The notes beneath the pieces are model-generated. The model searched no databases and had not been told where the DNA came from. It saw only the letters and a list, made by a program, of their open reading frames with translations. From Sulfurovum sp. 16-42-52 (GTDB taxonomy: Bacteria; Campylobacterota; Campylobacteria; Campylobacterales; Sulfurovaceae): a stretch of 37,128 nt of DNA. Shown here piece after piece: positions 27,501 to 31,164 of the stretch (position 1 is the stretch's first letter; each line of letters starts with the position of its first letter). Location: contig NCHB01000017.1 in the NCBI GenBank assembly GCA_002281755.1, positions 1-37,128 on the forward strand, in the 5' to 3' direction. The translations under genes and the position numbers were made by a program.

Positions 27501-27551
27501 TAAATCCATTATTGATATACTTATATAAGAATAATTTAATTCAATATCTCA

Positions 27552-27557
27552 TATAAT
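27552..27557 (+). promoter_or_regulatory. -10 element for the riboswitch transcript
   Basis: A perfect TATAAT lies about 30 nt before the riboswitch aptamer in a very A+T-rich stretch. No good -35 is present at 17 nt; a TTGATA at 27512-27517 pairs better with TTTAAT at 27535-27540, an alternative promoter for the same transcript. Confidence 0.4.
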
Positions 27558-27587
27558 GAACTTTTAAAACACAAATATATTTAATAT

Positions 27588-27653
27588 GGCAAACTTGTTG
27601 TGAAGCAGGGACGCAAAGCCATGGGTCTTATTGTTTAAGATTGCCAGGTTGCC
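27588..27653 (+). ncRNA. GEMM-I class riboswitch aptamer (cyclic di-GMP type)
   Basis: The region has the core of the GEMM-I motif. P1 pairs GGCAA (27588-27592) with TTGCC (27649-27653). P2 (27594-27609) is a 6-bp stem closed by a GTGA tetraloop of the GNRA kind. The hallmark joining segment GGGACGCAAAGCC (27608-27620) follows. P3 is TCTTA (27626-27630) with TAAGA (27636-27640), extended by GG/TT wobble pairs, then GCCAGG. By alignment to the Vibrio Vc2 aptamer, the position that decides between c-di-GMP and cGAMP appears to be G, which favours c-di-GMP; this is inference. It precedes a small membrane protein gene, with a hairpin plus T-run directly downstream. Confidence 0.85.
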
Positions 27654-27657
27654 AAAT

Positions 27658-27677
27658 CATACCTTTGGTGTGTTTTT
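27658..27677 (+). terminator. Riboswitch expression-platform terminator
   Basis: CATACC (27658-27663) and GGTGTG (27667-27672) pair around a TTT loop and are followed by TTTTT. It begins five nt after the aptamer's P1, so ligand-dependent folding could decide whether transcription continues into the gene at 27729. The stem is short, so the efficiency is uncertain. Confidence 0.5.
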
Positions 27678-27728
27678 GTGCTCTCTTTTTTTGCTTCAGT
27701 TTCAAGTTTAACCTGAAAAGGAAGAGTG

Positions 27729-28133
27729 ATGTATAAAAGAGCAGAACAGATAGAAGAAGAAAACCTCAATTGGGAACATGAGCCTAGCCAAGAGACACAT
27801 GTCTTAGCTTCAGAAAAATCAACTTCAAACCCACAGACTTCTTTACAACTCTCTTTGCAAAATCGTATCAAATCCATTGCAAAAAAATTAAATTTCAAAA
27901 AATTAAATGATTATATTGATGACAATACCGAGATTGCGCTGCTTTTTGCCGTGGTTGTTTTTCCTTTTGTGGTAGGATTTTGTTTCTCATATGCCTTATT
28001 TTATCTCTATGGCGGGGTACCTATGAGTGGTTTTCTTGCAATGGGTAAAGATCATACCGTACTTGAGATGTGGTCGATAGGGGCTTATGTCTTCATCACC
28101 ATTTTAGCTGTGATGGCTGTCTTTGCTCCTTGA
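27729..28133 (+). CDS. Small membrane protein under riboswitch control, unknown function
   Basis: A protein of about 134 residues, not recognised. The first 55 residues are charged and hydrophilic (many Glu, Gln, Ser, then a Lys-rich stretch IKSIAKKLNFKKLNDY), probably cytoplasmic. Two hydrophobic helices follow: about 66-90 (EIALLFAVVVFPFVVGFCFS) and about 113-132 (WSIGAYVFITILAVMAVFAP). AAAGGAAG ends about 4-5 nt before ATG 27729; a GTG at 27726 is the alternative start. As the only gene directly behind the GEMM-I aptamer, it is probably switched by the second messenger and may act in attachment, motility or surface processes, but this is inferred. Confidence 0.75.
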   Translation: MYKRAEQIEEENLNWEHEPSQETHVLASEKSTSNPQTSLQLSLQNRIKSIAKKLNFKKLNDYIDDNTEIALLFAVVVFPFVVGFCFSYALFYLYGGVPMSGFLAMGKDHTVLEMWSIGAYVFITILAVMAVFAP

Positions 28134-28223: not shown

Positions 28224-28952
28224 ATGAAACTGCATAGTAAGTTTTTCTCTGTTATGGGATTGGTGTTTATGCTTGGTGGATCAAGCCTTTTGGCAGCAGA
28301 ACAGTCTGCCAAAGAGATACTTGATAAGGCTTACGCCTATGTCGGAGGTATGGACAAGTACGCATTTAAGGCTGTTGTACTGGATGATGATTTAGAAGAC
28401 GGAAAAGTGACAAGAGAAAAATACAGACACGATGTCTCCGTCAAAGTAGACAGACCCGATAAACTGCGTGTTGACACCAAAGGTACTGTCAAAGAGAGAA
28501 GCTCTATACTTAATGATGGTGTCTTCACGATGATAGACTATGGGTTTGGGTACTATTCACAGCTCAAAACGCCAAAGAGCATTGATACAGCATTAGACAG
28601 TATTTTTGAGATGTATGGCATCAGAGCACCTTTGGCACAATTGGTTTACTCCGATATGCATCAGCGCTTTAAGTTTAGCAAAAGTAAAAACTTTGGTGTG
28701 GTGAGTGTGGATGGTATAGCGTGTAACTATGTGGCATTTGCTGATGCATTAGTAGAAGTGCATATTTGGATAACCACAGGTGACAAACCATTGATTAAAG
28801 CCTATAAAGTGATCGATATGCAAGAAAAAGAACACCCAAACATCAGTACGCGCATCACATGGGATTTTCAAGCAACTATTTCAGATAAAGATTTTGTTGT
28901 TGCCTTGCCTAAAGATTTTGCACCAATTTCTGTTTTACCTGTAGAAGAGTAA
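28224..28952 (+). CDS. DUF2092 family periplasmic protein
   Basis: A 242-residue exported protein with a signal peptide (MKLHSKFFSVMGLVFMLGGS, cleavage near LLAA-EQ). The mature chain has KEILDKAYAYVGGMDKYAFK, VKVDRPDKLRVDTKG, LNDGVFTMIDYGFGYYSQLK, GIACNYVAFADALVEVHIWI and an ending FVVALPKDFAPISVLPVEE. This matches DUF2092, a family with a LolA/LppX-like half-barrel fold. Its role is unknown but it is probably a periplasmic carrier or chaperone. AAAGGAAAGAAG is a good ribosome binding site. It is 9 nt upstream of the Asn-rich gene, and a barrel-protein gene follows, suggesting one envelope unit. Confidence 0.83.
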   Translation: MKLHSKFFSVMGLVFMLGGSSLLAAEQSAKEILDKAYAYVGGMDKYAFKAVVLDDDLEDGKVTREKYRHDVSVKVDRPDKLRVDTKGTVKERSSILNDGVFTMIDYGFGYYSQLKTPKSIDTALDSIFEMYGIRAPLAQLVYSDMHQRFKFSKSKNFGVVSVDGIACNYVAFADALVEVHIWITTGDKPLIKAYKVIDMQEKEHPNISTRITWDFQATISDKDFVVALPKDFAPISVLPVEE

Positions 28953-29555: not shown

Positions 29556-30335
29556 ATGAAAAAATGGATTACAGGCACAGCATTGGTGTCTTCATTAGTA
29601 ATGGCAGGTGGAGATATCGCCCCCGTGCAAGAGGTTGTACCTGTTGCTCCTGTAGAGGTAAATGATGAGATTAAACAGTCATTTGAACTGTATGGATGGC
29701 TTCCAAGTCTTGACGGTACCCTCAAATACAATCTTCCAGATAACAGTGGCACAGGTGAATCGGACATCATCAGTAAACTAGATGGTGTTTTTATGGGGGC
29801 TTACTCTATTCGTAAGAACCAATGGTCTTTTTTGGCTGATGTTCAGTATGTGAAGTTTGCTGATTCTCAATCAGTAACCCAAACACTGCTCAATCGTCAG
29901 TTTACACTCGCATCAGAGCAAGAACTTACCACATGGATAGCCAGCGGTTATGTGGGGTACGCACTTTTGGATGATGGTATCCATACGCTTGATGCGATTG
30001 TGGGATTACGTTATCTTTCTTTGGGGGCAGATATATCAGTGAGTCTAAACAACTTACAGCGAGGTATATCACCATCAACAGAATTTTATGACGGTGTGGT
30101 CGGTGTTCAAGGTGAAGTGAATTTCAATGAAAGTTGGTATCTACCGTACCATTTTGACATTGGAGCAGGGGATTCAGACCTTACTGCGCAAGCAAGTGTA
30201 GGGATAGGATATAGATTTGGCTGGGTTGATGCGATCCTGTCATACCGCTACTTGTATTATGATGAAGGAGACGAAGCATTGATCAATACACTCGATGCCT
30301 ACGGACCACAAATCGGTGTCAAGTTCCACTTTTAA
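29556..30335 (+). CDS. Predicted outer-membrane beta-barrel protein
   Basis: A 259-residue protein with a short signal peptide (MKKWITGTALVSSLVMAGG), a Val/Pro-rich linker (VQEVVPVAPVEV), and then alternating amphipathic strands: FELYGWLPSLDGTLKYNL, GVFMGAYSIRKNQWSFLADV, TWIASGYVGYALLDDG, TLDAIVGLRYLSLGAD, SVGIGYRFGWVDAILSYRYL. The chain ends in Phe (IGVKFHF), the usual barrel-assembly signal. It looks like a small 8- to 12-strand barrel. The function is unknown. The perfect hairpin after its stop marks the end of the DUF2092-repeat protein-barrel group. Confidence 0.78.
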   Translation: MKKWITGTALVSSLVMAGGDIAPVQEVVPVAPVEVNDEIKQSFELYGWLPSLDGTLKYNLPDNSGTGESDIISKLDGVFMGAYSIRKNQWSFLADVQYVKFADSQSVTQTLLNRQFTLASEQELTTWIASGYVGYALLDDGIHTLDAIVGLRYLSLGADISVSLNNLQRGISPSTEFYDGVVGVQGEVNFNESWYLPYHFDIGAGDSDLTAQASVGIGYRFGWVDAILSYRYLYYDEGDEALINTLDAYGPQIGVKFHF

Positions 30336-30344
30336 GTTTCTTCC

Positions 30345-30372
30345 GATACTTTGGTCATTGTACCAAAGTATC
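30345..30372. terminator. Strong hairpin after the barrel gene
   Basis: GATACTTTGGT (30345-30355) and ACCAAAGTATC (30362-30372) pair perfectly for 11 bp around a 6-nt loop, 10 nt after the stop codon. There is no T-run after it on the + strand (AAAAAT follows), so it may act as an mRNA-stabilising end, a Rho-aided terminator or a boundary before the beta-lactamase gene. Confidence 0.5.
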
Positions 30373-30420
30373 AAAAATTCTATTGTACAGCACTTCTATA
30401 AATCCTTAAGGTTTACCTTC

Positions 30421-31164
30421 ATGAATTACTTTAAAATTTCACTGTTCATGACAGTATCCATTTTTACAGGTTTAGCGTTCGCAGATGAACCTGATTTTGG
30501 CAAATTTGACGGTACGGCGGTTATCATTGATTTGAATACTTCAAAAAAGCTCACATACGGCAAGCACGCAGATGAGCAAGTCAGTCCCTGTTCAACTTTT
30601 AAAATTTTAAACTCCATAATTGCACTCGAAAATGCTGTGGTGAAAGATGAGAATGAGATCATCCCTTGGGATGGGGTTGTGAGTGAATACCCATTTTGGA
30701 ACCATGAACATTGTATGCGTTCTGCGATAGCGGTTTCCACTGTTTGGTTCTATCAGGAACTCGCGCGCCGTGTGGGTGAAGCAAAAATGGCAAAAATGGT
30801 ACGCGCAGCAAAGTATGGAAATATGGATACTGCCAAAACACTCACAAGCTTTTGGTTAGGTGGTGGGAGTCTCAAGATATCTCCTAATGAGCAAGCCGAT
30901 TTTCTGTCAAAGCTTGTACGCAATCAGCTGCCATTTTCTTCACGTGCTTTGACAATAACCAAAGATATTATGAACCTAGAGAAAAACAAAGACTACAGTC
31001 TCTCCGGTAAAACAGGGAGTTGTGATAGTATTGGTTGGTTTGTAGGATTTATAGAAGAGGGTAATGTCACAAAAGTATTTGCATTTAGCCTCCGTGGTGA
31101 AGGCGCAAACGGTGTGGAAGCGAAAAATATCGCTCTGCGCTTTTTACAAAAGAACGCAAAATGA
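30421..31164 (+). CDS. Class D (OXA-type) beta-lactamase
   Basis: A 247-residue exported serine beta-lactamase. The signal peptide is MNYFKISLFMTVSIFTGLAF. All class D landmarks are visible: CSTFKILNSIIALE (nucleophile Ser and carboxylated Lys, S-x-x-K), STVWFYQELARRVG (S-x-V), KYGNMD (YGN), FWLGGGSLKISPNEQADFL (with the conserved Trp), SGKTGSC (KTG) and IGWFVGFIEEG (W-x-x-G). The ATG at 30421 is preferred over the frame's first ATG at 30295, which lies in the barrel gene, because it begins the signal peptide and follows TAAGG by 9 nt. There is no transposase or integron site beside it, so it looks like a resident chromosomal enzyme. Its spectrum cannot be predicted. Confidence 0.93.
   Translation: MNYFKISLFMTVSIFTGLAFADEPDFGKFDGTAVIIDLNTSKKLTYGKHADEQVSPCSTFKILNSIIALENAVVKDENEIIPWDGVVSEYPFWNHEHCMRSAIAVSTVWFYQELARRVGEAKMAKMVRAAKYGNMDTAKTLTSFWLGGGSLKISPNEQADFLSKLVRNQLPFSSRALTITKDIMNLEKNKDYSLSGKTGSCDSIGWFVGFIEEGNVTKVFAFSLRGEGANGVEAKNIALRFLQKNAK

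Follow-up and report, generated by a model that had tools for sequence, protein, structure and literature searches.

The 37,128-nucleotide stretch of Sulfurovum DNA considered here (hereafter the window), which makes up contig 30 in a genome of 1.99 Mb, encodes a small membrane protein behind a leader with a recognizable RNA fold, and the question raised by this locus is what sets the amount of that protein. The reading we favour, with a probability of about 0.82, is that a standard class-I c-di-GMP riboswitch lies close to where the mRNA begins and that the c-di-GMP level sets the amount of the two-helix membrane protein. In mechanistic terms, the cellular level of c-di-GMP would act on a GEMM-I aptamer in the leader and, through it, on how much of the small protein is made. 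The parts of this reading that could be computed directly are an aptamer with canonical ligand contacts, covariation in its stems, its association with a gene family, and the c-di-GMP enzymes encoded in the genome. The riboswitch class itself is already known; it is the membrane protein family, as a recurrent target of c-di-GMP, that appears to be undescribed.

The aptamer occupies positions 27578-27657 of the forward strand. A preliminary description of the locus had proposed a GEMM-I element and an Infernal-type scan as the check, and that scan returned a significant match to the RF01051 covariance model (67.7 bits, E 3.0e-13 in a search of the whole genome; gathering score 35). The related model RF03167, named c-di-GMP-I-GGC, also matched above its gathering score of 59 (63.4 bits, E 7.2e-13 in a search of the window), and a covariance model built from the genus scored 87.6 bits, the window itself being among the building sequences. 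The element had been taken to start at 27588, a position that is in fact the G20 residue inside the aptamer, whose true start lies about 10 nt earlier. It had also been called near textbook, which is borne out by the GNRA-capped P2, the ACGCAAAGCC core, and P3, but not by P1, for which only about four A-U pairs are available (AUUU at 27579-27582 with AAAU at 27654-27657). The P2 stem (27594-27609, CUUGUU/AGCAGG) carries the tetraloop GUGA at 27600-27603 and is assigned from the Rfam structure line and from covariation among relatives. Compared with the Vc2 and Vc1 riboswitches of Vibrio cholerae (RF01051), the window shares the fold, the GNRA-capped P2, the G20/A47/C92 set, and the position in an mRNA leader, but differs in its weak P1 and in having a member of an unnamed family as its target protein.

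The ligand is best approached through the residues of Vc2 that touch c-di-GMP, namely G20, A47, and C92 (PMC4744006; PMC3764141). This contact set is complete in the window (G27588, A27615, and C27652), and in an alignment of 104 aptamers (predominantly Sulfurovum, plus a few from elsewhere in the Campylobacterales) the first two residues are invariant and the third is C in 102. The genome also encodes the enzymes of c-di-GMP metabolism, with seven GGDEF and five EAL matches over the cut-off. Since the contact bases are intact and such enzymes are present, c-di-GMP is the likely ligand. The riboswitches of Geobacter that respond to 3',3'-cGAMP (GEMM-Ib) have an A at position 20, whereas the window and all 104 aligned aptamers have a G at this discriminating position, as the preliminary description had supposed for the window, and the window is therefore not assigned to that class. 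The overall architecture of the aptamer is nevertheless common to both, and position 20 influences selectivity without acting as an absolute filter (PMC9262584), which lends some support to the idea of another ligand, be it cGAMP or the ligand of the GGC variant. A further point in its favour is that RF03167 is the top Rfam entry of the window by E-value. At position 47, however, the consensus of RF03167 is G (ACGCGAA), which, going by the model, we take to be the source of 'GGC' in its name, while RF01051 has A, as do the window (ACGCAAA) and every aligned aptamer; RF01051 also gives the higher bit score, and the variant was rejected on these grounds. Taken with the invariance of G20, this makes a ligand other than c-di-GMP very improbable. 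Clan competition in Rfam nonetheless names the aptamer of the window (27579-27657) and several of its relatives c-di-GMP-I-GGC despite the A at 47, and this automatic label may misguide on the ligand.

Some variation is seen around the contact bases. Pair 21-46 (27589/27614) is C-G in 102 of the 104 aptamers, the G-C of the Rfam consensus being confined to the window and L053, a close relative, and pair 22-45 is U-A in 14. In two aptamers U replaces C at contact position 92 (L038, 1501-1580, and L138, 2508-2582, both on the reverse strand); these are possibly specificity variants or decaying copies.

Covariation argues for the predicted fold. In the aptamer alignment, whose fitting to the covariance model biases it toward such a result, 98.7% of cells are paired and two-sided changes occur in 14 of 18 pairs; none of 500 shuffles scored as high, and controls with slid positions were at most 48.3% paired. 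RNAalifold, run independently on 36 sequences that had been aligned earlier with MAFFT, gave a nearly identical structure with 13 of 20 pairs compensated. A search for other copies in the genome, as had been suggested, brought the total of c-di-GMP-I riboswitches to four. In 61 genomes of the genus there are 382 (mean 6.3 and maximum 21 per genome), and up to 21 copies in one genome is, to our knowledge, unusually large for the class. The genus often shows tandem arrangements, with two aptamers on the same strand within a few hundred bases of each other (L022, L023, L028, L030, L040, L122, L123, L125, L128, L151, and L155).

The gene behind the aptamer is an open reading frame of 134 codons at 27729-28133 on the forward strand, preceded by a good Shine-Dalgarno sequence (AAGGAAG, 27718-27724). 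Its product has two predicted transmembrane segments (residues 69-87 and 114-132), in agreement with the two-helix protein first described. The view that this protein is an orphan did not survive a profile search, which found members of a large unnamed family in 63 of 78 genomes of the genus. Two further families of the Campylobacterales have members as well, in one of them beside uvrA, and the closest named relative is encoded by a Sulfurovum MAG (L075; best tblastn segment 77% identical). The window protein has no match in NCBIfam and none above the cut-off in Pfam. The only nearby Pfam family, DUF2207_C (PF20990), shows a weak likeness over residues 36-132 (17.5 bits against a cut-off of 33), and membership was rejected on this score; second-branch members and L010 have no such match. 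A profile search of the PDB with the second branch of the family gave nothing significant, and a structure model of the window protein, of low confidence (mean pLDDT 59.5), places helices at residues 67-94 and 107-132.

The family consists of two main branches. The first comprises the window protein and its relatives and has the N-terminal motif MYxRxExIEEENLDW; the second has the conserved core FFPEGxEKIFL..LPYIAG...W.IGYE and lies, in most genomes inspected, in the gap between uvrA and polA. Comparison of the two profiles (probability 95.2%, E 2.6e-8, 70 columns) supports the homology of the branches, with the reservation that both are transmembrane hairpins. Two transmembrane segments are predicted in 82 of 84 members, and because the loop is mostly neutral or acidic and the C-terminus basic, both termini would fit a cytoplasmic location across the family, the window protein itself being almost without a C-terminal tail. 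The conserved neighbours are uninformative on function, the second branch being flanked by uvrA and polA and members at other sites having differing surroundings. A third, small group of members (L055, L056, and L057) is found directly 3' of a pair of tRNA genes, and in another family of the Campylobacterales (L190, L191, L194, L195, and L197) the two-helix gene, a gene of about 272 codons that reads like an HDOD protein, and polA follow one another on one strand.

Riboswitches precede members of both branches. In the first, the aptamer precedes the start codon by about 70-165 nt in the window and six other genomes (G100, G027, G116, G003, G105, and G107). These seven members group together in a single clade (SH-aLRT 82), whereas G010 and G012, which are more distant, are without an aptamer. 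L075, which is probably of the same species as G100, is also riboswitch-bearing. In the second branch, riboswitches are found in 13 genomes. One of these is the source genome itself, where an aptamer (contig C44, 50764-50839, reverse strand; locus L002) stands ahead of a two-helix gene in the uvrA-polA gap; two of the four riboswitches of this genome thus stand before both of the family genes found in it. Homologues of the protein behind GEMM-I elements, which had been named as something to look for, therefore exist in both branches. Overall, 20 of about 95 family members have a riboswitch, against about 0.3 expected from the rate across the genus, a contrast that is inflated in that it ignores relatedness. 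Among 150 Campylobacterales genomes 15 have both elements, 6 the family only, 10 the riboswitch only, and 119 neither, a co-occurrence that is strong by genome but borderline by genus (one-sided p of about 0.05) and that was set aside as main evidence. Most family members are without a riboswitch, which shows that the family does not depend on the link, and none was found near the members examined outside the genus.

The state of the riboswitch on the family tree requires at least eight changes, so the link must have been gained or lost several times. Such turnover could mean that the aptamer in the window is a weak one or a relic, the gene being driven mainly by its promoter and the association inherited from an ancestor whose switch still worked. 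Weak, decayed-looking matches ahead of family members in L064, L079, and L058 speak for this explanation, and no expression platform conserved across orthologues was found. A relic would have decayed, however, and yet neither the window nor any close orthologue has lost a contact base or a stem, despite proteins that are only about 40% identical, which renders this explanation improbable. On the favoured reading of a working c-di-GMP riboswitch, several Sulfurovum members of the family, including the second in the source genome, would have been brought under GEMM-I control.

It might also be asked whether the two-helix gene is the true target. Directly downstream, on the same strand and after a gap of 90 nt, lies a gene for a DUF2092 periplasmic protein (28224-28952; PF09865, E 6.2e-36), which could be co-transcribed with the small reading frame and be the gene that matters, and the order of riboswitch, two-helix gene, and DUF2092 gene recurs in L075. 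In the orthologous locus L010, by contrast, the riboswitch is retained although no gene on the same strand comes next, the syntenic loci of other orthologues have the same layout and likewise keep the riboswitch, and the members of the uvrA-polA branch similarly stand alone; we thus regard the DUF2092 gene as an unlikely target, and the two-helix gene as the probable one. Elsewhere in the window, the product of a gene at 30295-31164 on the forward strand carries a penicillin-binding transpeptidase domain (PF00905, E 4.8e-30) and by eye resembles a class D beta-lactamase, and the genes upstream of the aptamer read, again by eye, like a modABC-type transporter.

The leader itself appears to begin close to the aptamer. 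A TATAAT box at 27552-27557, read from the sequence (within CATATAATGAAC, 27550-27561), lies about 20 nt upstream of the aptamer on the forward strand and is a probable -10 element, and TATAAT is present at a similar distance in L075, L010, L011, L045, L051, and L052; a strict scan of the window for paired -35 and -10 elements found no promoter. With the box so close to the aptamer here and in riboswitch-bearing orthologues, transcription probably starts a few bases 3' of it, which would put the aptamer right at the start of a transcript of its own.

How binding might be read out is suggested by two features between the aptamer and the start codon. The first is a weak terminator-like hairpin, CAUACC-UUU-GGUGUG, at 27658-27672, followed by T5 (27673-27677). 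The preliminary description had noted a hairpin with T5; the hairpin exists, although its first base comes immediately after the aptamer and not 5 nt further on. Control mainly by transcription termination at this site would draw on the T-run placed directly after the hairpin, on an alternative pairing (GCCAAA/UUUGGU) that shares bases with the hairpin as well as with the aptamer's 3' end, and on L075, where the stem is retained with one two-sided change. Against this, the hairpin has only three G-C pairs and a folding energy of -4.6 kcal/mol, the number of terminator-like sites (one, against 0.4 +/- 0.5 in shuffles) is not clearly above chance, the T-run in L075 is interrupted by a G to give UGUUGUUGUG, and a scan of the longer leaders of L010 and L051 found no terminator-like site. 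The same facts weaken the earlier impression of a clear switch layout, and termination as the main mode of control is in our view rather doubtful.

The second feature is the segment GCUUCAGUUUCAAGUUU (27693-27709, forward strand), a possible expression platform proposed from minimum-energy folds of the window and L075. The segment is complementary to the P2 region (27591-27597 and 27602-27606), with a similar pairing in L075, and when the aptamer is forced, its CUUC can pair instead with the Shine-Dalgarno sequence, in folds whose outcome varies with the length of transcript used. When duplex energies for complementarity between leader and aptamer were compared with shuffles, nothing was clearly above chance. 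In ensemble calculations the accessibility of the Shine-Dalgarno sequence does not change in the window (0.32 and 0.34), falls from 0.93 to 0.37 with the aptamer in L075, which favours an OFF switch, and shifts the opposite way in L067, L095, and L015, which more closely resemble ON switches. Both directions of control are on record for homologous GEMM-I aptamers (PMC9262584). That the riboswitch of the window actually switches is something we infer. Formation of the aptamer would leave CUUC (27694-27697) free to mask the Shine-Dalgarno sequence, and the weak hairpin at 27658 may contribute some termination; for these reasons we lean slightly, at little better than even odds, toward c-di-GMP lowering expression in the window.

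As to what is controlled, the protein family is a probable c-di-GMP output that appears to have gone unreported. A search of mostly open-access literature combining riboswitch, c-di-GMP, and Sulfurovum found no report, and a broader one turned up none among the papers listed. A stronger and more tentative version, against which we would put the odds somewhat, is that the two-helix family is a dedicated, undescribed c-di-GMP output of Sulfurovum whose amounts are set by GEMM-I riboswitches at two loci and which might, for example, adjust an envelope machine or attachment to surfaces. That the protein acts in surface attachment or in altering the envelope is conjecture, prompted by the other genes that lie behind these riboswitches. 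Across the genus, crude reading-frame calls inspected by eye show many targets that resemble lipoproteins, large secreted proteins, and PAS-like proteins. The present survey describes a sizeable c-di-GMP riboswitch regulon in Sulfurovum, unreported in the papers searched, with an unnamed membrane protein family among its recurrent targets, and offers an experimental way in to c-di-GMP control in these sulfur-oxidising bacteria. The remaining two copies in the source genome precede, as judged by eye, a gene for a PAS-like protein (contig C26; locus L003, 1500-1574, forward strand) and what looks like an ABC exporter gene (contig C35; locus L004, 1502-1580, reverse strand). At the latter, GUUGCC within the aptamer is complementary to a GGCAAC immediately 5' of the start codon.
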